The notes below the pieces were generated by a model, which was given only the letters and a program-made list of their open reading frames with translations, was not told where the DNA came from and ran no database searches. Positions 47,050 to 61,961 of a stretch of DNA of 64,000 nucleotides are shown piece after piece. Numbering within the stretch: the first letter of the stretch is position 1; each line of letters begins with the position of its first letter. The stretch is from Beijerinckiaceae bacterium (lineage in GTDB: Bacteria > Pseudomonadota > Alphaproteobacteria > Rhizobiales > Beijerinckiaceae): NCBI GenBank assembly GCA_030684835.1, contig JAUXWZ010000015.1:1-64000 (forward strand), in the 5' to 3' direction. The translations under genes and the position numbers were made by a program.

Positions 47050-47162
47050 AGGCGGGGTCCGCTTCGGCGAAGACCCTCCACAGCGCGCCCGTAGCTCAGC
47101 TGGATAGAGCACCAGACTACGAATCTGGGGGTCAGAGGTTCGAATCCTTTCGGGCGCGCCAT
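47050..47162 (+). repeat. Left 113-bp direct repeat (attL-side)
   Basis: Identical to 57320-57432. It spans about 35 bp upstream of the tRNA, the whole tRNA-Arg gene and one base beyond. This is longer than usual att cores, which normally cover only the 3' end of a tRNA gene. Confidence 0.9.
47085..47161 (+). tRNA. tRNA-Arg (anticodon ACG), left copy
   Basis: This 77-nt cloverleaf has acceptor GCGCCCG/CGGGCGC, D arm GCTC..GAGC, anticodon stem CCAGA/TCTGG with loop CTACGAA (anticodon ACG, Arg), a 5-nt variable loop, a TTCGAAT T-loop and encoded CCA. A TTGCAA-N17-TACACG pair ending at 47024 may be its promoter. It is the integration target, with the integrase starting 79 bp downstream. Confidence 0.97.
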
Positions 47163-47209
47163 TAGATTCAATGGGTTAGCTTCAACAGCGAAATCGCATT
47201 TCCGCTTCA

Positions 47210-47227
47210 GTCACACTGCCGTCACAG
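47210..47227 (+). other. Candidate integrase arm-type site, left
   Basis: GTCACACT-GCC-GTCACAG lies between the left tRNA and the integrase start. The same 8-3-7 arrangement, in the same orientation, occurs at 57207-57224 near the right end. Such paired motifs near both ends could be integrase or excisionase binding sites; this is inference from position and repetition. Confidence 0.35.
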
Positions 47228-47239
47228 TGGGACGACGAA

Positions 47240-48226
47240 ATGGCGACCATTCGCAAACGCAACGGCAAGTACCAAGTCCAAGTTAGGCTTCTCGGTAGCC
47301 CGCCCTCATCGCGCGCCTTTACTCTTAGAAGAGATGCCGAGGCATGGGGCCGCGAGGCGGAGCGCACCATCGAGGTCGGCGACCTGCCGATAAGCCGATC
47401 ACACCTGAAAGCGACACTTGGCGATCTGCTAGCGCGGTATCGCGACGAGGTGACCCCGGCAAAGAGAAGCGCCCATACGGAACGTCTCCGAATTGGCCTC
47501 ATACTTCGGCATCCCATTTCCAACCTCGCGGTTGCGCGGCTGAGGCCGGAAGACATCGCCCGCTTCCGGGACGAGCGACTGGCGAAACGCGCCACCGAGA
47601 CGGTGCGCCAGGATCTGGTGCTCCTGCGCCAGGTGCTCTTGGTCGCGCGGAAGGAATGGGGCATTCCGCTTTCGCAGAACCCGGTCGATGAGGTTCGTAA
47701 GCCGCCCCCAGCGACAGCTCGGACGCGGCGACTTATGCCAGGTGAGTTAGACGCGATCATATCCGCGACCCAGCGCACCCGTGATCCGCGGCTGCGCGCG
47801 CTCATCGAGTTCGCCATTTCCACCGCCATGCGGCGGAGTGAAATCCTGCGTATCCAATGGAAAGACATTGATTGGCGGAACAAGACCCTCATCATCCCGC
47901 AAGCGAAGAACGGCCACTCGCGCATAATACCCCTAACGTCGAAAGCACTGGTGGTCCTGGGGACCTTGCAGGAGCTCGAAAGCTGCCGACGAGTCCCCTT
48001 CGGGATGACCGCCAACGCAGTGCGCTTAGGTTGGCGACGAGTCGTCAGTCGAGCGGGGCTGATTGATTTGCGCATGCATGATCTCAGGCATGAAAGTATC
48101 AGCGCCTTTTTCGAACGCGGCCTCAACGTTCCTGAAGTTGCGCACATATCCGGCCATCGGGATGTTCGACAACTGCTGCGCTACACGCATGTCAATGCTA
48201 TCGCAATCGGACGCAAGTTGGACTGA
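47240..48226 (+). CDS. int: Site-specific tyrosine recombinase (integrase)
   Basis: The 328-residue protein has an N-terminal arm-binding stretch (MATIRKRNGKYQVQVRL), a SAM-like core-binding domain and a catalytic domain with all active residues: Arg in STAMRRSEILRI, Lys in AKNGHSRIIPL, HDLRHE (His-x-x-Arg), ISGHRD and the nucleophile Tyr in LLRYTHV. It lies directly downstream of tRNA-Arg in the same orientation, the standard place for an integrase using the tRNA as its attachment site. The frame is intact, so excision or transfer may still be possible. Confidence 0.95.
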   Translation: MATIRKRNGKYQVQVRLLGSPPSSRAFTLRRDAEAWGREAERTIEVGDLPISRSHLKATLGDLLARYRDEVTPAKRSAHTERLRIGLILRHPISNLAVARLRPEDIARFRDERLAKRATETVRQDLVLLRQVLLVARKEWGIPLSQNPVDEVRKPPPATARTRRLMPGELDAIISATQRTRDPRLRALIEFAISTAMRRSEILRIQWKDIDWRNKTLIIPQAKNGHSRIIPLTSKALVVLGTLQELESCRRVPFGMTANAVRLGWRRVVSRAGLIDLRMHDLRHESISAFFERGLNVPEVAHISGHRDVRQLLRYTHVNAIAIGRKLD

Positions 48227-48372
48227 GCCAGGGGGCGTGGCAATGGCTGGTCTCTTGCTTACCAATGAGGTCCTGAACCACCCGGATACCGCAGCCTTGT
48301 CAGGACCGCAGCCGCATCGCAGCGACTCAGGGTGAAGCCTCACCCAACTAACCAGCAAAAATACTGGCACCG

Positions 48373-48402
48373 TAAAACGAAGGGCGGACCGGAGCCCGCC
48401 CT
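48373..48402 (-). terminator. tracrRNA 3' terminator hairpin
   Basis: AGGGCGG and CCGCCCT flank an 8-nt loop, followed on the minus strand by TCGTTTTA. It ends the predicted tracrRNA and lies about 150 bp past the convergent integrase stop. Confidence 0.8.
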
Positions 48403-48458
48403 GATTTGGTGGAGTTGTCTCCTTGTTAACGGAGAGACCGCACCGCTCGTCTTGGTAA
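48374..48458 (-). ncRNA. tracrRNA
   Basis: On the minus strand, 48436-48457 is a perfect 22-nt complement of CRISPR repeat nt 11-32 as transcribed, and 48425-48432 pairs with repeat nt 1-7 with one bulged U. This gives the lower-stem, bulge, upper-stem duplex known in type II-C. Next come a small hairpin GGAG-ACAA-CUCC, the linker ACCAAAUC, then a terminator hairpin AGGGCGG/CCGCCCT (48381-48402) and UCGUUUU. Size is about 85 nt. It is divergent from cas9, with its promoter overlapping the cas9 upstream region. Confidence 0.88.
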
Positions 48459-48465
48459 CGGGAGT

Positions 48466-48493
48466 AGGCTAGCATGGCGATCGGAATGGTCAA
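48466..48493 (-). promoter_or_regulatory. Candidate tracrRNA promoter
   Basis: Minus-strand TTGACC (48488-48493) and a weak TAGCCT (48466-48471) are spaced 16 bp apart, predicting a start at about 48458, just at the anti-repeat. The -35 box lies 12 bp from the cas9 ATG, so tracrRNA and cas9 initiation regions overlap. Confidence 0.5.
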
Positions 48494-48505
48494 GTGGGGG
48501 CTAAG

Positions 48506-51500
48506 ATGGAGGGGCGACCAATCATTCGCTTTGCATTCGACCTTGGGACAAACTCGATCGGATGGGCTGTATTAGAGGGAGCCAAACCTGACGCCGCCGC
48601 ACCTGGTCACCAGGGGCAAAGCACTCAGCTAAGTGGCGTTAAGGCGATGGGAACGCGCGTTTTCCCCGATGGTCGAAATCCAAAGGACGGGACGTCGCTT
48701 GCTATGATGCGCCGCGCGCCCCGAGCTGCTCGGCGTAGAAGGGACCGCTTTCTCCAAAGACAACGCAAGCTGATAGCTCTGCTTATCAGGTTTGGCCTGT
48801 TGCCCGCGCGAGAAGGAGAGCGGAAGAGGCTTGAGCGATCCGACCCTTACGCGCTGCGTACTCGCGCCCTCTCGGAGAGCCTGACGCCTTTTGAGGTCGG
48901 ACGAGCGATTTTCCATCTCAATCAGAGACGCGGCTTTCAATCCAACAGGCGCACGGACCAGAAGGACGCGGAAACGGGTGTTTTGAGACAGGCCGCGAAG
49001 CGACTGGACGAAGCCCTCGCGGACGCGGGCGCGCGCAGCCTCGGCGAATTTTTGAACCTACGCATTCAGGCAGGAGAAGGTGCGAGATTTAGAATTACCG
49101 GCATCGGCGCCAAAGCCGGCCATCAGTTTTATCCATCGCGGGGCCTCATCCAGACTGAGTTTGACTCCATCTGGTCCTCCCAGGCCGGGTTTGATCCCGC
49201 GGTCTTCTCGGACGAAGCGAAAGAACAAATTCGAGAAGCGATGTTCCATCAGAGGCCGCTGAAGGCTGTTCGTCCCGGTCGTTGCACATTCAACCCAACT
49301 GAGGAACGGCTTGCCGCCGCACTGCCCTCGGTAGACGCCCGTCGAATTTATCAGTGGCTCAATGAACTCCGGTACGGGGAGGGTTTTACGCGGGGTAACT
49401 CCGCTGAGCATTTTGGAGCGCGATCTTCTCGCTAGCCGACTTTTGCAGGGTAGCTCACTCAAATGGGACCAGGTCCGAAGAGCCCTCAAACTCGGATCCA
49501 TTGTCCGGTTCAACCGTGAGGACTTCGAGCCCGAAATCAAGGGGTGTCAGACCGCCAAGCGCCTGGGGTCTTCGAAGAACCTCGGCAGTGCCTGGCATTC
49601 GCTGCCTTTAGTCAAAAAGGATCAGATGGTGCTCGAGCTCCTTATGCAAGAAGATGAGGAAACCCTCATCTCCTGGCTATGTTGCGAACTCGACTTATCA
49701 CACGAGCAGGCAACGGCAGTCGCCGCAACACCACTGCCAGATGGTTACGGTCGGCTTGGTTTGACCGCGAATACCGTGATCCTTGAGGAGCTGCAACGCG
49801 ACGTCATTACCTATTCCCAGGCCGCAGCGAGGGCCGGTTATCACCACTCTGACTTCGCCACTGAAAAAGGTGCCCGACTTCCCTACTATGGAAGGGCTTT
49901 GGAGCGACACGTTGCCTTTGGAACAGGCGACCCAGCTGATCCCGAAGACACTAGATACGGTCGTATCGCGAACCCGACGGTACACATTGGCCTAAACCAA
50001 CTACGCCGACTCACCAACAGATTGATCCAGAGCTACGGAAAGCCAGATGAGGTAATCCTCGAACTCGCGCGCGACCTGAAACTCACCAAGAAGCAGAAGG
50101 ATGAAGAGCAGAAGCGAAACAGGGATAATCGCACGGTGAATGAATTGCGCGTAAAAAAGCTGCACGATATAGGCATTCCGGATAATGCGCTCAACCGGTT
50201 GCTGCTGCGACTGTGGGAAGAGCAGCGTGATGGGGCGCATTCCTTCTGCCCCTATTCAGGAGCGCAAATATCCGTTGTGCAGCTTTTCTCCGACGAAACA
50301 GAGATCGATCACATTCTGCCTTTCTCACAGACACTTGATGATAGTGCCGCCAATAAGGTGGTGTGCTTCCGTGAGGCTAACCGTGAAAAGCGTAACCGGT
50401 CGCCATTCGCGGCATTTGGGCACAGGGCAAACTGGCAAGCCATAAGCTTGAACGCCGAGAAGTTGGCAGGCAACAAGCGTTGGCGATTTGCGCCCGATGC
50501 GATGGACCGCTTCAACACTGAAGGGCGTGACTTCCTCGACCGCCAATTGAACGAAACGAAATACCTCTCCCGCATTGCCAGAGATTATCTGAGCGTCGTA
50601 GCCGATGATGTATGGGTTAGCACAGGTAACCTCACAGCCATGCTGAGAGGCAAGTGGGGCCTCAATAGCATTCTGAGCGATGATAATCGAAAGAACCGTG
50701 ATGACCATCGTCACCACGCCATTGATGCTGCTGTTATTGGTTGCATGTCGCGCGGGTTGCTGAATGAAATGTCACGGCGCGCGGGACAAACAGAGCTTAA
50801 TCAACGGCATCAGATCATAGCCGATGTTCCGGTGCCGTATGAGGGCTTTAGGGATCAGGTCCGTGAGTTCGCTCGCACGATGGTCGTTTCTCACAAGCCT
50901 GAACACGGCAAAACAGGCGCGCTTCACGAGGAAACCGCTTATGGCATTGTCCGTAATGATGAAGAGCGCAAAACGGGTAATCTCATTTATCGCAAAGCGC
51001 TTACTGCGCTCACCGCGAAGGACATTGATCGAGTGCGCGATCCCATTCTGAGACAACAGCTTATTTATGTTCGAGAACGACGTCCACATCCACCCACAAA
51101 TTGGATGTTGCGCTTGCCGAATTTGCGGCGAGCGAGCACGATAAGGACCAATCTCTCGGAGCTCGCCGTGCTCCCCTCCGTCATGTCCGTGTGTTTAAGG
51201 CCGAAGCATCCGTCGTCGAGATTTCGAACCGTGACAGCGTGGCCTATAAGGCAGTTATTCCCGGCGAGAATTGGTGCATGGATGTTGTTTCCGTTCGGGA
51301 CGGGAAGGGAGGGTTTGTCTGGAAGGGCTTCGCAGCATCAGTGTTCGAAATCAATCAAAAAGGATGGCGGCCTGAATGGGAGCGCAATCGGATTGGCGGG
51401 AAGCTGATCATGCGTCTCCATAAGGGAGATCTAGTAGAGGTGAATGATCCGGACGGCGGGAGGAACATCAAGAGGGTTGTGCGGCTCAATCCTTCTGCAG

Positions 51501-51667
51501 GCCGCCTTTACCTTGTCAAACATAACGAGGCCGGTGACTACCAAAAGCGTCACGATGATCCAGATGACCCATTCCGGTGGGATCTCGCAGCAATCTCTAG
51601 TTTGCGCACAAGAAGCGCAACCAAGTTGCGCATCAACGAAGCTGGCAAAAGTAAAACTCAAAGTTAA
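48506..51667 (+). pseudogene. cas9: Cas9 endonuclease, type II-C-like, interrupted by two frameshifts
   Basis: Joined across two indels the product is about 1,050 residues, the usual type II-C size. RuvC-I is FAFDLGTNSIGWAV (Asp at residue 12), then an Arg-rich bridge helix (RAARRRRDRFLQRQRK) and HLNQRRGFQSNRR; RuvC-II is VILELARDL (about 50061); HNH is CPYSG..EIDHILPFSQTLDD..ANREKRNR (about 50260-50400); RuvC-III is HHAIDAAVIG (about 50710-50735). A WED/PAM-interacting C-terminus follows (RHVRVFKAE, FVWKGFAASVFEI). The frame shifts +1 near the G4 run 49392-49395 and -1 at about 51060-51100. ATG 48506 has GGGGG upstream; GTG 48494 is also in frame. All catalytic motifs survive, so recent decay or sequencing error are both possible. 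Confidence 0.9.
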
Positions 51668-51694
51668 GGCTGTTGTCGTCTAGATGTGGATCCA

Positions 51695-52381
51695 ATGTGG
51701 CGAAGACGAGCGGTGCGGTCCAACCGCAACCCATTCGATCCGCAAGGACGCCCGCAATGAAGGATACCAAGACGAGCGGTGCGGTCCAACCGCAACGCTT
51801 CCGCCAGTCTTTCAGGGTGATCTTTCGAGGATACTAAGACGAGCGGTGCGGTCCAAACCGAAACTATCCGCTTGCGAACTGCTGAGCGTGCGGTCCAACT
51901 GCAACCCATTGCTTTGCCCCCGTGTGCTGGCGGGTAGGATACCAAGACGAGCGGTGCGGTCCAACCGCAACAGGAGGAGGAGTCACGCCTTAACGAAGGC
52001 AGCATACCAAGACGAGCGGTGCGGCCCAACCGCAACCATATCAACGGCGAAAGACGACCGGACAACAGCATACCAAGACGAGCGGTGCGGTCCAACCGCA
52101 ACGTCTCCGTTTTCCATGATCCGATTCAAACAGCATACCAAGACGAGCGGTGCGGTCCAACCGCAACTTGCTCTTGCGATGCAACGGGTTCACCATCAGC
52201 ATACCAAGACGAGCGGTGCGGTCCAACCGCAACGCTGTAGGATGATCGGTTGGTGTCCATCAAGCATACCAAGAGTAGCGGTGCGGTCCAACCGCAACAT
52301 CAACGGGACCAACCACATGACCGAAGCAGGATACCAATACGTGCAGTGCGGTCCAACCACCGCCTATTGTCCGACCGCAAC
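51695..52381 (-). CRISPR. CRISPR array, 11 units, 36-nt repeat, 10 spacers of about 29-31 nt
   Basis: Units start at 51695, 51761, 51828, about 51883 (truncated), 51936, 52001, 52067, 52132, 52198, 52263 and 52328. The transcribed repeat begins GTTGCGGTTGGACCGC and ends CTTGGTATGCT, judged from GTTG starts of type II repeats and from the tracrRNA, so the array is read on the minus strand toward cas9. The unit at 51883 lost about 25 bp of spacer and repeat; the unit at 52328 is a composite of two repeat remnants; the unit at 51695 has a diverged end. The last 9 nt of the repeat (TGGTATGCT) resemble an extended -10 box. The array begins 27 bp past the cas9 stop. Confidence 0.96.
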
Positions 52382-52403
52382 CCGAAACCTCGACTCGTGA
52401 GAT

Positions 52404-52868
52404 TTAACGGAAAGCAGAACACCGAGGGCATACCTCGTCGAAGGCCCGCGCCAGCAAGCGTGTTCCGTGCTCTGTTGGAACGTGCTCGCTCAGCCCGCGT
52501 CTGCGGAGCCACGCGGCGGATACTTCCCAAGGCTGTAGCGAAACATACCCTGTGCTCGAAAGCCATGAGATTAGATCTTCAGGCATATAATAAATCCTGT
52601 TCCCCCGCCTGCGGAGGTGACCTAGTGTGGGCGGGCCGGTGCCCCGCACACGCCAGTTTGCTAATGATTGTAGGCTGACGCCAAGCAGGCGGGCTACATC
52701 CCGACTTGGAATTGGCAACCATGGCTGCTCATCTGACGCGACCATTCTTTCGATAGCTTCCAAAGAAGTAATCCTCTCCAAGAGGGTATCCTTTGCGCAG
52801 TTGGTAGCGATGCAGCCGACCTTCTTGTGCTCGACCCAGTGGTGCAATGCCGGAATAAAGCCCGACAC
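52404..52868 (-). CDS. Excisionase/AlpA-like helix-turn-helix protein
   Basis: The 154-residue protein has a central MerR/HTH_17-like domain: SRDVARLLGVSLQSLANWRV, RGTGPP, then a wing and YYMPEDLISWLSS, the layout of phage excisionases and AlpA-type regulators. The GTG start at 52868 is uncertain; an internal ATG at 52745 (MVASDEQPWL) would still keep the domain. It follows the primase gene by about 90 bp on the same strand and ends 22 bp from the CRISPR array. A role in excision control or replication-gene regulation is inferred from domain and context. Confidence 0.7.
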   Translation of the reverse strand: MSGFIPALHHWVEHKKVGCIATNCAKDTLLERITSLEAIERMVASDEQPWLPIPSRDVARLLGVSLQSLANWRVRGTGPPTLGHLRRRGNRIYYMPEDLISWLSSTGYVSLQPWEVSAAWLRRRGLSEHVPTEHGTRLLARAFDEVCPRCSAFR

Positions 52869-52957
52869 TGATCACATGCATCCCAAGAAAAGATCATGGG
52901 GGGTGAGTTTGTTCAGTCTGAAGTCCATCGACAACATCTTGAGACTTCATCACACGC

Positions 52958-55162
52958 CTAATTGACTGTCTGTCTAAGAGAATTTTCGAAAATAGAACTC
53001 TCACCCCCCCCGTGCCCGCGAAAGCGCCAAGGGTTGTTAGCCAGCAAGTCAGCGCGCACCTGGTCGGCAGAGTTTTCCTTCCACATCTCTTGATCCCTCC
53101 ATGCCCAAGGAGAGGCCCGCTCTTCGCCAACAATCCTGATTTGGCCAAGGGGGATCGCTCCAAATCGGCGAAGCGCGTCACGAACCTGTGCGACGCTACC
53201 TCCGCCACCGGGGAGGCGGACCCTCTCTAAAATCCACTCCGGAACTACCAAGGGACAAGGGTTCTCCTGAAGGAAGTCCTTAATACGCCTCTCAAATGGC
53301 GATTGACTTTCGGCGATCATTTCTCGCTTGGCGCTCGTTGAGGGCGGTGGGCTGTTAGGATTGAACAATCCTAACGGTCTTTGCAGAAGCAGCGCCTTGA
53401 ACGCTGCAAGAGCGTGTCGGGCGGCTTCACTGTTCAACGCTTCGTAGTAAGTCTTTTCCCTTGGGGTAGCGCGGCTATTGATCACGAACCACCGCCCATC
53501 ATCAGCTTCCGGGATCATGATCGGAAGATCGTTATTCGACAAAGCCAGAATGGCGAGGGGAGTACGGGCGCGGTAGAAGTCAATGTTCTTCCTTTGCGTC
53601 CTTACCTCGTCCTCTGAAATAAACTCTTTAAGGTCGTTGTAACGGTCTCTTCCTCTGACATAGAGCTCCTCGAAAACAGCAAGTTGTTTGTTATAAAACC
53701 CCCCTTGGAAGGTAGACTCGAGCTCCGTATTCGATACTGCCACGACATTACTCTTGCCCAGCATTTGCTTCCAGGCGCGCGCTATGGTCGATTTGCCTGT
53801 GCGCTGGTTGCCTTTAATCAAAATGGCGTGCCTGATCTTATATTGCGGCCGCTGCAAAGTATGGGCGATCACATTTAAAAGATGGTCGAGCTCTCCCTCG
53901 GCTTCCGGGATCAGGTAGCGGAAGTGATCCAACCAAATCTCACTATCTCCCGCAGCCGGAGAGATCCCGTCATCGATATACGTGTTTCCGATCCTGTGCC
54001 CAGCGTCGTTTGTCACAATGAGCGACCGCTCGCCAGGTAAGTATTGCAAAGTATCGACTTTGGGGGCCGTGCTTGACCTGATAAATTCTGCGTGGGGGCT
54101 TCCCTTCACCGCATGCGCGTAAGTTGCTGAAAAGTCTTTCGACTTCTTGATCAGTTGACGTCGGGTATCGTAGTAGACGTCCTCATCTGTTGCGTAAACG
54201 AAGCATTTTTGAAGTCGAACGATGTTGAGTTTCTCTCGGCCTATTTGAAGTGGCGTGGATATACTCGACCTGAACGTGCAGGCTGCACAGTGGGGCGACT
54301 CCTCGGCAAATTTACTGCATGTAAAAGGTCCGGTCATCTCCAGGACTCTATCAAGAGCGCGATCCGTATCCAGCTCAGAGTATCGATTGAAGTCGAGCGA
54401 TGACATGTGGTGGGCCAACCTGCGACCGTCCTCTGCGCGGCCAATCACGCTCAGGGCCATCTTCCAAAGCCACTCGCTAGCATGTTGTGCTTCCTCGTAA
54501 ACCGATCTTATAGCGCGGCAACCCTCCACCACGGTTTCTGCGTGGGCCGGCTCATTGGTAAAAGTGACTTCTTTTGTGGGATCAACGACCAACCTTCCGC
54601 TCTTCCTCCCAGGGTCGAGTGGCGGTGTAATTCTCTTATGGAGAAATTCAAGCAACCAGGGCGGGGCCTCTGCGACCTCCATTTCCCAAGGGGCGCACCC
54701 AGGTAGCCACAGATAAGGGTTACCGCTTTCGTGCACGGAAGGGCTGACTACAATCACGCCTCCCTCGCCACGAACATCGATGCCAGGAGCTATGTTCGCC
54801 GCGTTTTTGACGGTTCCTTGCGAAGGAAGGCGAAAAAGATAGTGGGCGCCGCCGCCTCCGGTCCGTTGCGTCGGAGTTGGAGGTAAAGCTCCATGTTCCT
54901 CGATGAGCGCGTGCAGGGTCGCCGGACCGCCGCTCTTTTTGTCAACGTCCAGAGCAAAGACACCCGACTTCACCCCGGTCGCCAGACCAATGTTTCCTGC
55001 GGAATTAGAAAACCATTGTCTGATGATCTCTTCATTCGACGTCGCGAGAGTGGGCCAATCCCTCATTTTCGGACCTTTGGCCTTATGGTCGATTGGGATC
55101 AAGGCAAACCCACAACGCGAAAGCCGAAGAGCTCCTTCCAGGACTTGGGTGCCGTCACTCAT
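52958..55162 (-). CDS. Primase-polymerase / SF3 helicase replication protein
   Basis: This roughly 734-residue protein has an N-terminal bifunctional primase-polymerase (AEP) domain with FALIPIDHKAKGPKMRDWP, GLATGVKSGVFALDVDKKSGG (catalytic acidic pair), GGGAHYLF and GIDVRGEGGVIVVSPSVHESG. A Cys-containing middle (CSKFAEESPHCAACTF) is followed by a D5/DUF5906-type superfamily 3 helicase with Walker A IKGNQRTGKSTIARAW and ILALSNNDLPIM. Such proteins start replication of phages, satellites and integrative plasmids. ATG 55162 overlaps the stop of the upstream gene by 8 bp; GTG 55171 is also in frame. An 8-base G run near the 3' end (about 53003-53011) is slippage-prone. Confidence 0.9.
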   Translation of the reverse strand: MSDGTQVLEGALRLSRCGFALIPIDHKAKGPKMRDWPTLATSNEEIIRQWFSNSAGNIGLATGVKSGVFALDVDKKSGGPATLHALIEEHGALPPTPTQRTGGGGAHYLFRLPSQGTVKNAANIAPGIDVRGEGGVIVVSPSVHESGNPYLWLPGCAPWEMEVAEAPPWLLEFLHKRITPPLDPGRKSGRLVVDPTKEVTFTNEPAHAETVVEGCRAIRSVYEEAQHASEWLWKMALSVIGRAEDGRRLAHHMSSLDFNRYSELDTDRALDRVLEMTGPFTCSKFAEESPHCAACTFRSSISTPLQIGREKLNIVRLQKCFVYATDEDVYYDTRRQLIKKSKDFSATYAHAVKGSPHAEFIRSSTAPKVDTLQYLPGERSLIVTNDAGHRIGNTYIDDGISPAAGDSEIWLDHFRYLIPEAEGELDHLLNVIAHTLQRPQYKIRHAILIKGNQRTGKSTIARAWKQMLGKSNVVAVSNTELESTFQGGFYNKQLAVFEELYVRGRDRYNDLKEFISEDEVRTQRKNIDFYRARTPLAILALSNNDLPIMIPEADDGRWFVINSRATPREKTYYEALNSEAARHALAAFKALLLQRPLGLFNPNSPPPSTSAKREMIAESQSPFERRIKDFLQENPCPLVVPEWILERVRLPGGGGSVAQVRDALRRFGAIPLGQIRIVGEERASPWAWRDQEMWKENSADQVRADLLANNPWRFRGHGGGESSIFENSLRQTVN

Positions 55163-55568
55163 CGTCAGCACCCCGGTTGAAGTGGAATGCGGTCAGGGTA
55201 TCGACGCATCCCTGAAGGCTTGGTGTGATCCAAACCCGCTCTTCGATGTAGTCAATCAAGAGGGCAAATTGTTCCGAGCAGCACCACTCGGCAATCTTAT
55301 TTCGTGTGGTAAAGTACGGGTTAGCGCGGGGGTACTCTGGGTGACGCCTCCCCAGAACTTCCAACTCCGTGTGGCGCAAGAGAAAACCCGCTATTTTTTT
55401 CTCCAGATCACCACGCTTATCGATGAACCCAGTAAGCGATTGGATGACCTTGGTGAAGGAGAACTCATCCATCCCTCCTTCGTTGTTCCACCATGTGGGA
55501 TCTTCGCCGATGGCAGGTGGTGGAGAAAAAACGACTTTTTTGGGTGTGCGCTTTGTTGGTCGTGGCAT
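55155..55568 (-). CDS. Hypothetical protein, first gene of the primase operon
   Basis: The 137-residue protein has a basic N-terminus (MPRPTKRTPKKVVFSPPP) and no TM segment; a region near the middle (FTKVIQSLTGFIDKRGDLEKKIAGFLL) looks helical. It is translationally coupled to the primase-helicase, overlapping its start, so a role in replication initiation or its control is plausible. I do not recognise the family. Confidence 0.65.
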   Translation of the reverse strand: MPRPTKRTPKKVVFSPPPAIGEDPTWWNNEGGMDEFSFTKVIQSLTGFIDKRGDLEKKIAGFLLRHTELEVLGRRHPEYPRANPYFTTRNKIAEWCCSEQFALLIDYIEERVWITPSLQGCVDTLTAFHFNRGADDE

Positions 55569-55896
55569 GGGATTATCCTTGAGGTTGTGGTCTTACCTCT
55601 TAGATATTGGGGCGGCTCGGATGACGGTCTACCACAGAGGTTCCTGCGGAGAACCAAGCTGTGTGCGTGACTGGGCATCACCGTCCAGTGGCTCACTGAC
55701 CTCGTGGTTCACCGCTGTCAGTAGATGCATGATGCATGCTGTTGTATGGCTAGCATTGGTGACCGCCCTTGCAATCAGGCAAGCCATCAATGGATAGGTC
55801 CTACTTCGCGGCGCGCAATCAGGTGCATCTGAGAACGAAGACAGTACCTGTGCATGGCCCCAGCCGGAACAGGCGGGAAACGTCTTGTTGCTGCGG
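55569..55896. other. Gene-free stretch between two minus-strand island genes
   Basis: No supported coding region is seen on either strand. It should hold the promoter of the primase operon; minus-strand TATCTA near 55609-55614 is a possible -10 box but no convincing -35 was found. A GATGCATGATGCATGC-like short repeat is located around 55726-55741. Confidence 0.4.
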
Positions 55897-56481
55897 TCAG
55901 TCCATAAAATAGAGCTTTCCAGGACGTACCGTTTCTACTTTTAGATCTTTGACGGAACACTCGAAAGAAGCCGCCCACCGTTTAATCCCACTGAACGAGT
56001 CGCTCGCGCTTTCCACGACCAACTTGATAGGAAGACCGGGTATCTTCCGAAGTTGGCTGATCGCACGGTCATCTGGATCGCCATCAGTCATCAAGGTGCT
56101 GGGCAGCCCCATTTTTGTTCGAAAAACGATAGCCGCGTTGCCTAGTTCTTCTAGCTGATGCGGGGCATATTTCGGGAAATACACGCTGAAAGTGGACGAC
56201 TGCCGTATGGTCTTTTCGATACTGCCTCTGCATTCATTGACAAGCGAAGCAAGGGAATGATCGGTAGCACCTTCTATGAGTTCGGCCTGCCGCGAACGCT
56301 CAGCTCTGCGCTCGTTTTCGTATTTGGCTTGCCTCGTTGCCTCTTCGTCTTGCCTCTTCACGGTTTCCTGAAGCTCACGCTTCGCTTTTTCCGCTCGCAT
56401 CTGCGGGTGTGGCCAAATGGTTAATGCCAGGATGGCCATACCTATCCCGACGTAGAAGACACCCTTCATTGAAAGCGCCAT
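55897..56481 (-). CDS. Membrane-anchored coiled-coil hypothetical protein
   Basis: The 194-residue protein has one N-terminal TM helix (VFYVGIGMAILALTIW), then a charged coiled-coil stretch rich in Glu, Arg and Lys (residues about 28-75), then a soluble domain with two Cys (VNECRG, FECSVKD). It could be a periplasmic-facing or cytoplasmic anchored factor. No family is recognised; its place inside the element suggests an accessory role. Confidence 0.65.
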   Translation of the reverse strand: MALSMKGVFYVGIGMAILALTIWPHPQMRAEKAKRELQETVKRQDEEATRQAKYENERRAERSRQAELIEGATDHSLASLVNECRGSIEKTIRQSSTFSVYFPKYAPHQLEELGNAAIVFRTKMGLPSTLMTDGDPDDRAISQLRKIPGLPIKLVVESASDSFSGIKRWAASFECSVKDLKVETVRPGKLYFMD

Positions 56482-56616
56482 TAGTAAATCTCCTTGCGTT
56501 CGGGGATCCGCATGTCAATTGAGCCTGTTTGTCACTGGCTGGGATCCGCCGGTGGGGGTGCCAGGAGATTGGTAGTTTCCTGTGCTTATGCTATGAGCAT
56601 GGTCAAACGTGAGCTT

Positions 56617-56654
56617 AGGAGTTCAGCATGTATCAAGCAGCTTGGCAATCATGA
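56617..56654 (+). promoter_or_regulatory. Ribosome-binding site and 8-codon leader ORF coupled to the lipoprotein gene
   Basis: AGGAG (56617-56621) stands 6 nt before ATG 56628, which opens an 8-codon frame (MYQAAWQS) ending TGA at 56652-56654. That stop overlaps the lipoprotein ATG at 56651 (ATGA). The layout suggests re-initiation from a short leader peptide. Confidence 0.5.
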
Positions 56655-56968
56655 TCAAGGTTGCCCTATCGATTATCTCTCTGTCTGTATTGATTGCGTG
56701 TGCAAAACATCCCGATGAAATACTCGCAGCGCGGGTTGAGATGACAACCATCAATAATTTGGATTGCGCGGCGCTGGCTTCGCGCCAAACCTCTCAAAGG
56801 TTGAAACTGGCCGAGGAAGAGCAACTTCAAAAAGTCTACTGGGCGCTCGATATAGCGCTTCCGTTCCCGCCCACCGGTTCAGTCCACAACAGGGACGTCC
56901 AAATCGGGCAGTTGAAGGGTGAACTTCAAGCTCTGCGTGAGGCATCGGCCAACAAGGGGTGTTCGTGA
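56651..56968 (+). CDS. Small lipoprotein, hypothetical
   Basis: The 105-residue product starting at ATG 56651 has a lipoprotein signal peptide (MIKVALSIISLSVLIAC, lipobox LIAC), then a helical domain with a late KGELQALREAS segment and terminal Cys. The pattern resembles short proteobacterial lipoproteins with an LKGE-x-x-AL motif. In prophages and satellites such proteins can act in superinfection exclusion, but that is speculation. A longer frame from GTG 56609 would bury the signal peptide. Confidence 0.6.
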   Translation: MIKVALSIISLSVLIACAKHPDEILAARVEMTTINNLDCAALASRQTSQRLKLAEEEQLQKVYWALDIALPFPPTGSVHNRDVQIGQLKGELQALREASANKGCS

Positions 56969-57319
56969 GGCTCTCAAACTCGCGTTTATAGATGGCTCCG
57001 TGCTGCCCCAAACCGCGATCCCCATGCACGCTTCTGGCGCCCGGACCGCGACCGTCCATTCCGATGACGACATCTCTGCCCCAGCGAGCATCAGGATGCT
57101 GCAGTCCAGTGAAATAGTCCTCAAAAATCAAAATTTCGCGCCAATATAAGCGGCTGCATGCCCAGGATTGCTGGGACGCTCACGAATAAAAGCGTCCACT
57201 CATCCGGTCACACTCTTGTCACAGCCGGCGAGCCGGTTACACTGACCCAGCATTGAGCAGTAGAACAAAGGTAGGTCGACTCGGCGGATTGTGACGAGCG
57301 ATTCGGGTGTGAAATCAGG
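56969..57319. other. Gene-free right end of the element
   Basis: No convincing coding region. It holds a candidate integrase arm-type motif at 57207-57224 and a possible promoter for the right tRNA copy (TTGTCA at 57217-57222, N16, then TACACT). Confidence 0.45.
57207..57224 (+). other. Candidate integrase arm-type site, right
   Basis: GTCACACT-CTT-GTCACAG matches the left-end motif at 47210-47227 in 15 fixed positions, same orientation. It overlaps the putative -35 box of the right tRNA copy, so it could instead be part of a promoter. Confidence 0.35.
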
Positions 57320-57432
57320 AGGCGGGGTCCGCTTCGGCGAAGACCCTCCACAGCGCGCCCGTAGCTCAGCTGGATAGAGCACCAGACTACGAATCTGGGG
57401 GTCAGAGGTTCGAATCCTTTCGGGCGCGCCAT
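57320..57432 (+). repeat. Right 113-bp direct repeat (attR-side)
   Basis: Identical to 47050-47162, including a full tRNA-Arg gene and 35 bp upstream. Recombination between the copies would release a 10,270-bp circle and leave one tRNA gene. Confidence 0.9.
57355..57431 (+). tRNA. tRNA-Arg (anticodon ACG), right copy
   Basis: Identical over all 77 nt to the left copy, with encoded CCA. It has a plausible promoter of its own upstream (TTGTCA-N16-TACACT), so both copies may be expressed. Confidence 0.96.
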
Positions 57433-57588: not shown

Positions 57589-60069
57589 TCAGTCCGCGCC
57601 TGCCGCCGCTTTTTGGGTCACATCGCGATAGGCCAGCAAGCGCAAGGCGTTCGCCACCACAACGAGCGTTGAGCCTTCGTGGAACACCACTGCGGCGCCA
57701 AGCTGCAGTCCGAACAGGGTGGCGGGCACCAACACGGCCACCATCCCCAGGCTGATCCAGAGGTTTTGCCTGATGATGCGGCTGGTGCTGCGGCTCAGGC
57801 CGATTACGAAGGGAAGACGGTCCAGCTTGTCTCCCATGAGTGCGACGTCGGCGGTTTCCAGCGCAACATCCGATCCTGCGGCCCCCATGGCGATGCCGAC
57901 GGTGGCGTTGGCCATGGCGGGCGCGTCATTGACGCCATCGCCGACCATCGCGACCTCGTTTTGCGAGCGCAGGCGCTTGATTGAAGCCACCTTGTCTTCG
58001 GGCATCAAGTCGCCAAAGGCCTCGTCGAGTCCGACCTGCTTGGCGACCGCCTCAGCAACACGCCGGTTGTCTCCTGACATCATGACCATGCGCGTAATCC
58101 CCAGCGTGCGTAGCCGGGCAATTACCGGAGCTGCAGCAGCACGGGGCGTGTCCATCAGACCCAGTACGCCGAGATAATCATCACCCCGGCGGACAACCAT
58201 CGTGGTGCGGCCGCGCTCTTCCAAATCTTCGACGACTGACCGAATTGCTGCCGGCAAAGACGGTCCGTCGATCTCGGCAAACAGGGCCGCTTTCCCTACG
58301 AACACGGGAACACCGCTGATCTCGGCCGCAAGTCCTCTGCCGGTTATGCTGCGCAGGCTGTCAGCGATCGGCAGCCCAGAAGTCGCGCGAAGCTTTAAGC
58401 GTCCGTCGCGAACCACGGCGGCCGCGAGCGGATGGTCACTGAGTTCTTCCACCGCGATCACGACCCCAAGGAGGTCATCGACTTCAATCCCGGATGCGGG
58501 CACAACGTCCATGACGCGGGGCTTGCCTTCCGTCAGCGTACCCGTCTTGTCGAAGGCGATGGTACGGACAGCGCCGAGGCTTTCCAGCGGGCCTCCGCCC
58601 TTTACGAGAACGCCGCCACGTGCCGCCCGTGCGATGCCGGACAGCACTGCACTGGGCGTCGAGATTGCCAGAGCGCAGGGACTGGCGGCAACCAGTACCG
58701 CCATGGCACGGTAGAAACTGTCGCCGAACGGCTCGTCGATCACCACCCAGGCAAATAGAAGTAGGGCGACGCCAGCCAGCACCACAGGTACGAAAGTTCT
58801 CTCGAAGCGATCAGTGAAGCGTTGGGTGGGCGATTTTTGCGCCTCGGCTTCACCCACCATGCGGACAAGGCGCGCCAGCGTACTGTCTGCGGAAAGCTTG
58901 GTGACCCGAGCCTCAAGAACGCCGCTGCCGTTGATCGTCCCCGCATAAAGCCGGTGTTCGGCGGCCAGGCCTTCGGGCCGCAGGCTCGCGCGGCCAATAT
59001 CGTCTACCGCTTGCTTGTCCACGGGCACGCTCTCGCCCGTGATCGAGGCTTGATCGACGCTGCTTGCCCCAAGGACGACAAAACTATCCGCCGGAATTCG
59101 CGTGTTGGGTCTGACAACGACGATATCGCCAACGATCAGATCAGCGACGCCGACTTCGATCACTTCGCCCTCGCGTCGAACTTCCGCCATGGGCGGCGCC
59201 AGTTCGGCAAGAGCTTCGATCGCGCGGCGGGCTCGACCCATGGCGTAGTGTTCCAGCGCATGGCCGATGCTGAACAGGAAGAGCAGTAGCGCGCCTTCAG
59301 CCCATTTATCGAGCGCCGCTGCGCCGCCTGCCGCGACCAGCATCAAAACGTCGATCTCGAGCCGACCCAGACGAAGTGACGCTATGGCTTCACGGATCAG
59401 GTAGTAGCCGCCAAAACCATAAGCCGCGATGTAGAACGACAGGGGAGCCCAAGAGCGGACGGAGGGAACAAAGGAAACAATAAAGCCGGCGACGAGAAGG
59501 GCCCCGCAAATGACTGCGAATATCAGCTCTGTATTGTCACCGAATATTCCACCACGCTCGTCGTGAACTCTTTCATCGATCCCCGCATTCGGCGGAACCC
59601 GCACCTCAACGGCGAGATCGTCAAGCACTTTGCGCAGGTCATGCTCTGATGTCAGTGTCCGGTCGAATTCGATACGCACGGGTCCTGCGACCGTGGCCAC
59701 CGCTTCCATGACTCCCGTCGCCCGCTGAAGATATTCCGTAACCTTACGGGCTCGCCGCTCGTTGGTAAGTCCCCCGGTTTCCCAAAGGATGTGGCCGAAG
59801 CTCGCGGTTACGCGGGCGCCAGCACCTTCGGTGATCTCCTTGATTCGCCCTAGACTGAGAACCTCCGGACGGTAGTGAACACAGAGCTTGGCGGGTACGT
59901 CGCCCGATGCCGGAAGCACGTGAACCTGATCGATTCCATCACGGCCCGCCAATTCACCGACAAGTCGATCGACGCAGGCGTCGGCCTCGTTCTGCACGTT
60001 CGGCAACAGGACCGGGATGTCCAAACGAAAACGTTTTGCCTTATTCCTCTTCTGATGGAGGGCGTTCAA
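57589..60069 (-). CDS. Heavy-metal P-type ATPase (Zn/Cd/Pb type)
   Basis: The 826-residue P1B-type pump has a TM domain with the ion motif AASPCALAIS (Ser-Pro-Cys, typical of Cu, Zn or Cd pumps), the phosphatase motif TGESVP, phosphorylation site FDKTGTLTEGKP, SDHPLA and GDGVNDAPAMANA. The roughly 180-residue N-terminus has no CxxC metal-binding motif, so a canonical HMA domain is lacking or degenerate. It overlaps the OsmC-like gene by 4 bp and ends a permease-thioredoxin-OsmC-ATPase run. Zn/Cd export is more likely than Cu; this is an inference. Confidence 0.9.
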   Translation of the reverse strand: MNALHQKRNKAKRFRLDIPVLLPNVQNEADACVDRLVGELAGRDGIDQVHVLPASGDVPAKLCVHYRPEVLSLGRIKEITEGAGARVTASFGHILWETGGLTNERRARKVTEYLQRATGVMEAVATVAGPVRIEFDRTLTSEHDLRKVLDDLAVEVRVPPNAGIDERVHDERGGIFGDNTELIFAVICGALLVAGFIVSFVPSVRSWAPLSFYIAAYGFGGYYLIREAIASLRLGRLEIDVLMLVAAGGAAALDKWAEGALLLFLFSIGHALEHYAMGRARRAIEALAELAPPMAEVRREGEVIEVGVADLIVGDIVVVRPNTRIPADSFVVLGASSVDQASITGESVPVDKQAVDDIGRASLRPEGLAAEHRLYAGTINGSGVLEARVTKLSADSTLARLVRMVGEAEAQKSPTQRFTDRFERTFVPVVLAGVALLLFAWVVIDEPFGDSFYRAMAVLVAASPCALAISTPSAVLSGIARAARGGVLVKGGGPLESLGAVRTIAFDKTGTLTEGKPRVMDVVPASGIEVDDLLGVVIAVEELSDHPLAAAVVRDGRLKLRATSGLPIADSLRSITGRGLAAEISGVPVFVGKAALFAEIDGPSLPAAIRSVVEDLEERGRTTMVVRRGDDYLGVLGLMDTPRAAAAPVIARLRTLGITRMVMMSGDNRRVAEAVAKQVGLDEAFGDLMPEDKVASIKRLRSQNEVAMVGDGVNDAPAMANATVGIAMGAAGSDVALETADVALMGDKLDRLPFVIGLSRSTSRIIRQNLWISLGMVAVLVPATLFGLQLGAAVVFHEGSTLVVVANALRLLAYRDVTQKAAAGAD

Positions 60070-60467
60070 CCGCGTCTCCGGATGCCGCCGTCCAACTTGG
60101 TTGCGGCGGCAACGGTATTCGAGACGGTTCCATACTTTCGGACATTGGTATGAAGCAGCGCCGGGCGCGGGTCGCTTTCGTCGGTATCGACGATGAGCTC
60201 ATAGCGGACCGATACGATCTTTGGCGGAGAGTCCTGGCGGACCGCATGGAGCCGCACCTCGACTCCGCGAAGGTCGAAATGGAGCATCGGGGTTACGCGC
60301 TCGATACCCTTGATCATACAAGCTGCGATCGCCGCGAGGAAAAGCTCGGCGGGGTTGAACGCGTCACGCCTCCCGGCGGTATCCGTGTCGAGGACAATCT
60401 CCGCGTCCTTTGTTCTGGCTAGACTCCCGTGGGCGTCAATCCGGTGGGCGGTGACGCCGTATTCCAT
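60066..60467 (-). CDS. OsmC-like protein
   Basis: The 133-residue OsmC/Ohr-fold protein contains NPAELFLAAIAACMIKGIERV, the central helix with one of the usual Cys residues; the second is not evident. Ohr/OsmC proteins reduce peroxides through paired Cys, so a peroxidase role is doubtful here. It overlaps both neighbours by one to four bases, indicating a tight operon with the thioredoxin and the metal ATPase. Confidence 0.8.
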   Translation of the reverse strand: MEYGVTAHRIDAHGSLARTKDAEIVLDTDTAGRRDAFNPAELFLAAIAACMIKGIERVTPMLHFDLRGVEVRLHAVRQDSPPKIVSVRYELIVDTDESDPRPALLHTNVRKYGTVSNTVAAATKLDGGIRRRG

Positions 60468-60700
60468 TACAGGAGCCTCTCGATTTCCTGCGGCGTCAGA
60501 ACCTTGCCCGAGGACACGAGCTTCTCGTCAATCACGAGCCCGGGCGTGGACATCACGCCATACCCGGCGATCTGTGCAAAATCCGTCACCTTAACGATCT
60601 CAGCTTCTTTTCCGGCCGCCTTGGCCGCGGCCATGGCGTTCTCGCTCAACGCGACACATTTCTTGCAGCCAGTGCCTAGTATCTTGATGATCATCGTCAT
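60467..60700 (-). CDS. Small thioredoxin-like protein (redox-disulfide type)
   Basis: This 77-residue thioredoxin-fold protein has the active-site motif GTGCKKC near its N-terminus and the cis-Pro region GVMSTPGLVID. This short form is usually paired with an ArsP/DUF318-type permease, the next gene upstream, 10 bp away. GGGAG stands three bases before the ATG at 60700. Confidence 0.88.
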   Translation of the reverse strand: MTMIIKILGTGCKKCVALSENAMAAAKAAGKEAEIVKVTDFAQIAGYGVMSTPGLVIDEKLVSSGKVLTPQEIERLL

Positions 60701-60710
60701 TGTCTCCCTT

Positions 60711-61712
60711 TCAGAGGAATAGATGGGTGATGCTGTTGAAGATGTATCCGATAATCAGGATGCCTGCTGTAACGATCCCCAAAAACAAGATCAGAAGCGG
60801 CATCTTGATCACGCGTTTGAGCATGATGATCGAAGGCAGCGAAAGCGCCGTAACAGCCATCATGAAGGCCAAAACGGTCCCCAGCCCGACGCCCTTGCCC
60901 ACAAGAGCTTCGGCAATGGGCAAAGTCCCGAAGATGTCGGCATACATGGGGATGCCGACGACGGCCGCCACCAGAACTGACCACCACTTGTCCTGTCCCA
61001 GAAGAGCGGTAATCGTGGCCTCGGGAATCCAGTTGTGGATTAAAGCGCCGATGCCCACCCCGACAAGAATATAAGGCCAGACGCGCTGGATGATTTCCGT
61101 CACCTGATCCTTGGCGTAGCGAAATCGTTCTGCCCGAGACATATTTGCTTCGCCGTCATGGACCGGCGCGCTGTACACGAAGCTCTCCACCTGATTTTCC
61201 ATCCCGGCTCTGCCGATGAGGGTGCCTCCTGCCACCGCGAGCACCAGCCCAACGCCAATATAGGTCAAAGCGATCGGCCAACTGAAAATTGAGGCGATGA
61301 GGATCATCGAGGCCAGATCGACCAGGGGAGACGAGATCAGGAATGAGAACGTCACTCCGAGTGGCAGACCGGCCGCCGTGAACCCGATAAAAAGCGGAAT
61401 GGACGAACAGGAACAGAACGGCGTGATCGTTCCCAGAAGCGCGCCAATGACATTGGCGCCGATGCCGGAATATCCGCCAAGGATGCGGCGGGTTCGTTCC
61501 GGCGGGAAGTAGCTCTGGACCCAGGAGATCGCGAAGATGAGCACTGATAGCAGGATGAAGATCTTGATGACGTCATAAATAAAGAAATGGACGCTGCCGC
61601 CGATGGGTGAGGCGACGTCAAGCCCTGTGGCTACCAGAAGGTACGTCACCAAGTCCGACAGCCACTCCATCCGCAAAAATTGGTCATTCAGCCAGCCAAA
61701 GAATCCGCTCAT
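60711..61712 (-). CDS. Permease, DUF318/ArsP-like
   Basis: The 333-residue membrane protein has about eight TM helices in two halves, with PFCSCSSIPLFIGFTAAGLPLG and GIPMYADIFGTLPIAEAL, typical of the DUF318 permease family that includes organoarsenical exporters. The start at 61712 (MSGFFGWLNDQF) is chosen over 61796. Pairing with a small CxxC thioredoxin suggests thiol-linked metal or metalloid transport. It is the first gene of the four-gene cassette; no ArsR-type regulator is in the window. Confidence 0.88.
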   Translation of the reverse strand: MSGFFGWLNDQFLRMEWLSDLVTYLLVATGLDVASPIGGSVHFFIYDVIKIFILLSVLIFAISWVQSYFPPERTRRILGGYSGIGANVIGALLGTITPFCSCSSIPLFIGFTAAGLPLGVTFSFLISSPLVDLASMILIASIFSWPIALTYIGVGLVLAVAGGTLIGRAGMENQVESFVYSAPVHDGEANMSRAERFRYAKDQVTEIIQRVWPYILVGVGIGALIHNWIPEATITALLGQDKWWSVLVAAVVGIPMYADIFGTLPIAEALVGKGVGLGTVLAFMMAVTALSLPSIIMLKRVIKMPLLILFLGIVTAGILIIGYIFNSITHLFL

Positions 61713-61961
61713 ACGGCATTTTCCTGTTAAGCCGCGAGAACGAAATTCTGGACGCCCACCCTCGGGCAGGGATGAAACCATATGCAGTATAGTCACCGCT
61801 CACATCAGAAGCGAGGGTGACAAAGGTGGTGCTGCTTTGCGCAGTCCCAAGGGGCATCTCGCTAGAACTAATGAGTTAAGCCCTAGGCTTCAGCCTGTCC
61901 GGCGCGCCATTTCATTTCAATCATTCGCCAATGACTGCACGCCGAGAGGCGCGCCCCGCGC

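Follow-up and report, generated by a model that had tools for sequence, protein, structure and literature searches.

A frame-broken Cas9 module without Cas1 on a 10.27-kb tRNA-Arg element of a Beijerinckiaceae bacterium: a likely relic of defence cargo

Introduction

How a Cas9 comes to lie on a small mobile element without adaptation genes, and whether it can still defend that element, is the question raised by a 64,000-nucleotide stretch of a Beijerinckiaceae bacterium (contig JAUXWZ010000015.1, positions 1 to 64,000; hereafter the window). A 10.27-kb element in the window is bounded by two copies of a tRNA-Arg(ACG) gene and carries cas9, a trans-activating CRISPR RNA (tracrRNA) and an array of clustered regularly interspaced short palindromic repeats (CRISPR). 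The element, with its CRISPR-Cas9 module at tRNA-Arg(ACG), is genuine. We consider it likely that this module is a recent relic without nuclease activity. In this reading a small tRNA-Arg element bears defence cargo that can be exchanged, and the type II-C module found here first lost its adaptation genes, after which, unless the assembly is wrong, its cas9 broke. The character of the element is best read as satellite- or plasmid-like. A first-pass annotation of the same DNA had described an integrase-bounded tRNA-Arg element with Cas9, tracrRNA and array, without Cas1 and plausibly as defence cargo, and our analysis supported this description.

Results and Discussion

Boundaries and genes of the element

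The host draft genome is 96% complete and consists of 208 contigs. The two direct repeats that bound the element (Table 1) are 113 bp each and 100% identical, and each consists of a 35-bp leader and the whole tRNA-Arg(ACG). The integrase gene starts 78 bp 3' of the left tRNA, and the G+C content of the element is 55.3% vs 63.0% in the left flank and 60.5% in the right flank. An integrase that adjoins a tRNA and bounding direct repeats that contain tRNA sequence mark a tRNA-integrating element, and both were found here. Repeat comparison and tRNA detection confirmed the 10.27-kb length and the identical 113-bp repeats that had been proposed.

Table 1. Features of the tRNA-Arg element, with positions in the window
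Feature	Position	Strand	Basis or remark
Left 113-bp direct repeat, attachment-site-like	47050..47162	+	tRNA-Arg(ACG) at 47085-47161
Tyrosine integrase, 328 aa, intact	47240..48226	+	Pfam Phage_integrase 7.3e-28
tracrRNA	48381..48459	-	anti-repeat ~48459-48425, then hairpins, terminator-like stem ending at 48381
cas9 piece 1, N-terminal, 313 aa to premature stop	48494..49435	+	frame 2; cas_Csn1 2.9e-50
cas9 piece 2, middle, HNH and RuvC-III	49377..51077	+	frame 0, within open reading frame 49362-51407
cas9 piece 3, C-terminal	51101..51667	+	frame 2; no family match alone
CRISPR array	51695..52363	-	10 repeats in register and 1 truncated; spacers 29-31 nt
Helix-turn-helix protein, excisionase/AlpA-like, 154 aa	52404..52868	-	HTH_17 3.4e-7; PHROG 66 (excisionase) 1.1e-5
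Primase-polymerase with SF3-type helicase, 737 aa, intact	52958..55171	-	Prim-Pol 1.3e-38; DUF5906 1.5e-14
137-aa open reading frame	55155..55568	-	no family (Pfam, NCBIfam, PHROG)
194-aa open reading frame, hydrophobic N-terminus by reading	55897..56481	-	no family above cut-off
119-aa open reading frame, small-lipoprotein look by sequence reading	56609..56968	+	no family
Right 113-bp direct repeat	57320..57432	+	whole tRNA-Arg(ACG) at 57355-57431

The integrase, the excisionase-like helix-turn-helix (HTH) protein and the primase-polymerase/SF3 helicase named in the first-pass annotation were all confirmed by Pfam and PHROG matches, and the primase-polymerase also matched the PHROG DNA primase family at 6.5e-69. 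Six integrase residues (R198, K223, H280, R283, H306 and Y315), which we take to be the expected catalytic ones, are invariant across five aligned sequences including that of the window. Neither a structural PHROG nor a P4 packaging gene was found among the nine open reading frames (ORFs) of the element. We take the phage-type tyrosine integrase to mediate recombination between the element and the tRNA-Arg(ACG) gene. Control of excision is probably the role of the AlpA-like HTH protein, and the circle, once excised, is probably replicated by the primase-helicase. As virion and conjugation genes were not recognised, the element would depend on a helper for its transfer.

cas9 is broken in two places

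The first-pass annotation had taken 48506-51667 as one cas9 gene, and this did not hold. The ORFs and a tblastn search with the intact 1062-aa Cas9 of G348, an uncultured alphaproteobacterial metagenome-assembled genome (contig CALMUW010000057.1), both divide cas9 into three pieces in frames +2, +3 and +2, with breaks at 49377-49387 and 51077-51101. The pieces correspond to G348 Cas9 residues 2-295 (63% identity), 292-865 (57%) and 879-1062 (60%). The first covers positions 3-298 of the 1070 of the NCBIfam profile cas_Csn1, and the second covers positions 304-850 (4.8e-105) and matches Pfam HNH_4 (6.3e-22) and RuvC_III (6.5e-20). The single open frame of a type II-C Cas9 is thus missing, while the RuvC and HNH domains are present, though in pieces. 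As sequenced, the first cas9 product stops at 313 aa, upstream of the HNH domain. The three pieces are free of additional stops, and the middle piece keeps the motifs ELARD, EIDHILPFS and HHAIDA. At the second break, the gap between the matches is 23 nt in the window vs 39 nt in G348.

As a control for the reading frames, 43 sense-like ORFs from three same-genus loci, filtered by the G+C content of codon positions, were compared with the window. Matches were obtained for 24 ORFs and cover 12.9 kb of host DNA, within the range 28.5 to 46.9 kb. In 23 cases the match was a single segment; the remaining ORF had a second segment, which was an antisense shadow. When the filter was omitted, 4 of 25 queries gave more than one segment, which we read as antisense or wrong-frame shadows. 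Because the control ORFs are unsplit, the pieces contain no additional stops and the motifs are kept, both breaks are probably real and recent events in this sequence. Programmed frameshifting was also considered and was rejected by inference; it would need two shifts of opposite sense, and a shift is seen in no relative.

The breaks might instead be assembly or sequencing errors, so that the element carries a working adaptation-less Cas9 like that of CampyICE1, the Campylobacter element discussed below. We regard this as quite unlikely. The conserved motifs and the lack of other stops in the three pieces would fit it, as would the otherwise complete module with its near-perfect tracrRNA-repeat duplex. 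However, two splits fell within the 3.2 kb of cas9 vs no sense-strand split in the 24 control ORFs, the spacing at the second break differs from that of the relative, and several repeats of the array have decayed as well.

tracrRNA, array and spacers

The anti-repeat of the tracrRNA pairs with almost the whole repeat at -58.3 kcal/mol, while shuffled sequences averaged -22.7 and the best of 200 reached -32.6, and the fold of the tracrRNA has a z score of -5.2. An intrinsic terminator-like stem was found at 48402-48381; stems of this kind are about equally frequent in shuffles of the region. The Rfam tracrRNA families gave no match at this region. A plus-strand tracrRNA and array were tried and rejected; the duplex there reaches -51.5 kcal/mol, since pairing of this kind can be read from either strand. 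We prefer the minus strand because of the longer duplex, the downstream terminator-like stem and the orientation in G348. The place first proposed for the tracrRNA was borne out, and its strand is the minus strand.

The repeat on the minus strand is GTTGCGGTTGGACCGCACCGCTCGTCTTGGTATGCT. The array reads GTTGCGG... on this strand and points to the 3' end of cas9, so that it is convergent with cas9 as in G348, where the repeat has the same start (GTTGCGGTTGGACCGCACCG) and the array likewise lies opposite to cas9. Among the ten in-register repeats, three are identical to the consensus; the other seven differ from it at one position (three repeats), two positions (one repeat) or 6-7 positions (three repeats). 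An eleventh, truncated repeat lies inside a 72-nt interval at 51864-51935. The array is present as first described, with its repeats ending at 52363 and not at 52381 (claimed 51695-52381), and several of them decayed. No copy of the repeat with at most three mismatches was found elsewhere in the host genome.

The spacers were compared with phages and plasmids by blastn, and all matches had E values of at least 0.2, some of them overlapping repeats. Against 51 genomes of the genus, two chance-level matches were obtained besides the array and the anti-repeat, and exact 20-mers of 5 of the 9 spacer intervals had no match in IMG/VR. The phage, plasmid and viral collections used are incomplete. This comparison, which had been suggested earlier, gave no convincing target.

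Taken together, the earlier idea that a minimal Cas9 could defend the element is not upheld by a cas9 broken twice in frame, a degenerate array and spacers for which no target was found. Unless the breaks are assembly errors, active Cas9 defence as sequenced is unlikely, because two frame changes break cas9 and the array is degenerate. Defence would be the former role of the module.

Adaptation genes and other Cas9 loci

No Cas1 was detected in the host draft genome, while the same search found Cas1 in 9 of 14 control genomes. Two type II-C Cas1 proteins and one Cas2, when compared with the 64-kb window, gave no match at E ≤ 1e-4; no genome-wide search for Cas2 was made. Cas4 and Csn2 had no Pfam or NCBIfam match among the nine element ORFs, and no genome-wide search for them was made. 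The absence of cas1, cas2, cas4 and csn2, as first stated, thus holds for Cas1 across the genome, for Cas2 in the window, and for Cas4 and Csn2 among the element ORFs. A second Cas9 was not found in the host genome at E ≤ 1e-20.

For comparison we used 46 other Cas9 loci, 43 of them in 397 genomes of the order and three in 51 genomes of the genus. In 45 of the 46, cas9 is an uninterrupted frame of at least 981 aa, the exception being a fragment in G016. The surrounding stretches contained cas1 in 45 loci and cas2 in 43, and the misses lie at contig ends (cas1 in L095; cas2 in L095, L100 and L109). Because cas1 and cas2 are so regularly present, the type II-C clade is normally complete, and the window locus is the odd one out. 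The simplest explanation for the absence of cas1 is that this lineage lost the gene, rather than that the locus follows an established design. Neither of two test integrases had a relative in 44 of the 46 stretches, and one was present in L031 and L112 (weak and distant in L112); in the 7 stretches shorter than 7 kb, integrases farther off would be missed. The first-pass annotation had named cas1 or cas2 elsewhere in the genome, or homologous cas9 loci outside any integrase-bounded segment, as evidence that would speak against it. The genome-wide lack of cas1 went in its favour, and the Cas9 relatives, mostly with cas1/cas2 and without the test integrases, went against it.

The nearest Cas9 is that of G348, at 57-58% identity, and a 30-sequence tree groups it with that of the window (support 0.991), with L003 next to the pair. 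The G348 contig was the only close Cas9 relative in the genome-contig scan. Two matches in viral contigs were at 32-35% and one in the phage collection at 27%, and plasmid Cas9s did not exceed 46% identity among the matches listed. The G348 locus differs from the window in its intact cas9-cas1-cas2-array order and in its 19 repeats with one core sequence, vs the decayed repeats of the window. An integrase gene lies directly upstream of cas9 in G348, but it differs from the integrase of the window (28%), and the gene beside it is presumably dusA-like. No repeat of at least 14 bp was found in the flanks of this island. The G348 island also holds three 29-nt repeats, which look to us like those of type I-E, and, between its integrase and cas9, a copy of the sequence flanking them at 85-89% identity (L031 5934-6084 and 12523-12659).

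We infer the order of loss, as well as the mobility of the element and the inactivity of its Cas9. The genes cas1 and cas2 would have been lost first, and the frame breaks of cas9 and the decay of the repeats would have followed. It is hardly credible that the broken Cas9 has been retained for a different function, either as a short N-terminal protein or with the tracrRNA and CRISPR RNA alone serving as regulators. The tracrRNA and the N-terminal piece are intact, but the same truncation occurs in none of the 46 loci (the fragment in G016 differs), and the decay of the array suggests no upkeep.

Related elements and their cargo

Relatives of the integrase at E ≤ 1e-40 were found in 21 of the 397 genomes of the order, and the primase search gave 17 of 397, the window being included in both counts. 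Of the 20 integrase relatives, 11 have a tRNA at a distance of up to ~180 bp on the 5' side of the integrase gene; in L197 this tRNA has the opposite orientation. Direct repeats of 61-114 bp that overlap a tRNA delimit 7 of 19 further integrase neighbourhoods, and also that of G211, a genome of another family of the order. In G211, one contig carries relatives of the integrase (53% identical), the HTH protein (55% over 86 aa) and the primase (32% over 509 aa), between two copies of tRNA-Arg(ACG) that lie ~22.5 kb apart and share an identical 113 bp with their own, different leader. The first-pass annotation had proposed a search for the same gene order at tRNA-Arg loci elsewhere; G211 provides a homologous element at tRNA-Arg(ACG), though one without Cas9. 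In G099 (L194), the repeat (809-922 and 18571-18684) is 114 bp long and consists of the whole tRNA-Arg and a 37-bp leader.

The segment might instead be an immobile defence island of the host that happens to be flanked by duplicated tRNA genes; we hold this to be very unlikely. The lack of recognised transfer genes would suit such an island, and so would the duplication of the whole tRNA with its leader, which is longer than the tRNA repeats of S. meliloti prophages and islands as excerpted (12-98 bp; PMC11476347). Against it stand the start of the integrase only 78 bp from the tRNA, the nearby 5' tRNA of 11 of the 20 related integrases, and the same 113/114-bp duplication of a whole tRNA in G211 and G099. 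Across the three hosts, the whole tRNA-Arg is duplicated with ~34-37 bp of leader (113, 113 and 114 bp), and six other relatives have repeats of 61-72 bp. The 113-114-bp duplication in three hosts is a testable puzzle on the site use of the integrase.

PADLOC was run on chosen ORFs of the eight delimited relatives, and defence matches were obtained in five of them. These were type IIG restriction-modification (R-M) in L188 and G211, a SIR2/ThsA-like protein in L189, Vsr with a methylase in L192, and type I R-M with a SIR2-like protein in L194. Near distant primase relatives, type III R-M genes (G359) and SspABCD genes (G010) were seen. The Cas9 module joins R-M and SIR2-like genes as cargo of small tRNA-targeting elements in this order. 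Immediately beyond the right tRNA-Arg repeat of G211 there is a GajA (Gabija-like) gene that is divided between two ORFs (L163 41-1647). In viral collections, the primase had one distant prim-pol locus in viral contigs and weak partial matches in the phage collection; phage-collection integrases were at 35% among the matches listed, and the IMG/VR integrase scan kept 80 loci at 27-41%.

Several observations weigh against a recent relic of exchangeable defence cargo. As to the cargo, L197, L198 and L201 had no PADLOC match in the one ORF scanned in each, R-M genes are common, the five matches in eight relatives may not exceed a background rate, and no Cas9 was found in the stretches around the 20 integrase relatives, which makes the window the sole case of Cas9 as cargo. 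As to the site, no tRNA was found near the HAD gene that precedes the left tRNA in 15 of 20 same-genus stretches, some of them short, and the genes of the right flank (57589-61799) were unmatched in these 20 loci, with no exact empty site. As to the decay, the frame control covers host DNA left of the element, the breaks are known from a single draft assembly, and the loss of cas1 is deduced from Cas9 relatives at no more than 58% identity.

A bolder reading is that a 10-kb primase element free of transfer genes carries a fixed-memory Cas9 as swappable cargo, the breaks being errors or specific to this lineage. Across its family, CRISPR, R-M and SIR2 modules would be exchanged at tRNA genes, and integration would sometimes duplicate the whole tRNA with its leader. 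We consider it rather unlikely. The recent relic of defence cargo is the reading that we prefer, and it makes a stage of decay visible, in which adaptation is gone, the effector is broken and the repeats are eroding while the rest of the element is apparently intact. It also gives a caution, as a Cas9 called by eye from a draft genome can be a pseudogene.

Comparison with known systems

CampyICE1 is an integrative conjugative element of Campylobacter at tRNA-Met, with an integrase, a primase and conjugation genes in 70-129 kb (PMC8743540). The excerpted report describes an orphan type II-C Cas9 with a tracrRNA and three short arrays, without cas1/cas2; it also reports that cas9 is interrupted in seven genomes, that frameshifts with stops occur, and that 63.7% of the spacers were predicted against plasmids. 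The element of the window likewise bears an orphan II-C cas9 with an array inside integrase-bounded DNA, and it resembles CampyICE1 as described there in its tRNA integration, its integrase and primase, its lack of adaptation genes and its tracrRNA. It differs in its size of 10 kb, its one array, the lack of recognised transfer genes and the lack of a spacer match. As far as we have seen, an adaptation-less Cas9 on a tRNA-integrated element is already known from CampyICE1, and the window adds a new, decayed member. CRISPR-Cas systems on tRNA-integrated islands have also been described in Vibrionaceae (PMC6360697, in excerpt).

In P4-like phage satellites, the region from psu to the integrase harbours a defence locus whose content is exchangeable, according to excerpts of the report (PMC9122126). 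These satellites share with the present element the small size and the exchangeable defence, but no P4 packaging gene was recognised here, and the primase of the element reached 40.4 bits with the P4-family model primase_Cterm, below its cut-off of 108.7. The circular 21.4-kb Pleomorphomonas plasmid pSM30-2 (AP017628.1, L206) encodes a primase-helicase that is 32% identical across 96% of the query, and its annotation includes XerD. It is a plasmid with annotations for cysteine desulfurase and R-M, and no Cas9 is annotated on it. Perhaps closely related to pSM30-2 is contig C1 of G010 (21,484 bp). The excerpted text of the 2025 CRISPR-Cas classification (PMC12669027) has no entry for such a II-C variant, and in the open-licence PMC literature on Cas9 on islands, in Rhizobiales and on satellites no title on this element was found.

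Host site and flanking genes

Of the 51 genomes of the genus, 50 have the HAD gene that precedes the tRNA in the window. In 5 of 20 same-genus loci the orthologous HAD gene is followed by tRNA-Arg(ACG), with one copy per stretch; four of these five stretches are 4-5.5 kb long. The leader differs among the hosts of the genus, where alignments leave out the initial 23-28 bp of the repeat, and it is identical between the two copies in the window, as it is in G211. Identical leaders fit a recent capture, or an exchange between the copies. In G397, which has the closest HAD gene, the same tRNA-Arg is followed by genes that read as serine-recombinase-like and other recombinase-like genes (L128 9980-15874). 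Because recombinase-like genes follow the same tRNA there, the tRNA-Arg site after the HAD gene may be a hot spot of integration. To the right of the element, the genes at 57589-61799 include, by sequence reading, a heavy-metal-type P-type ATPase and OsmC-, thioredoxin- and permease-like genes.

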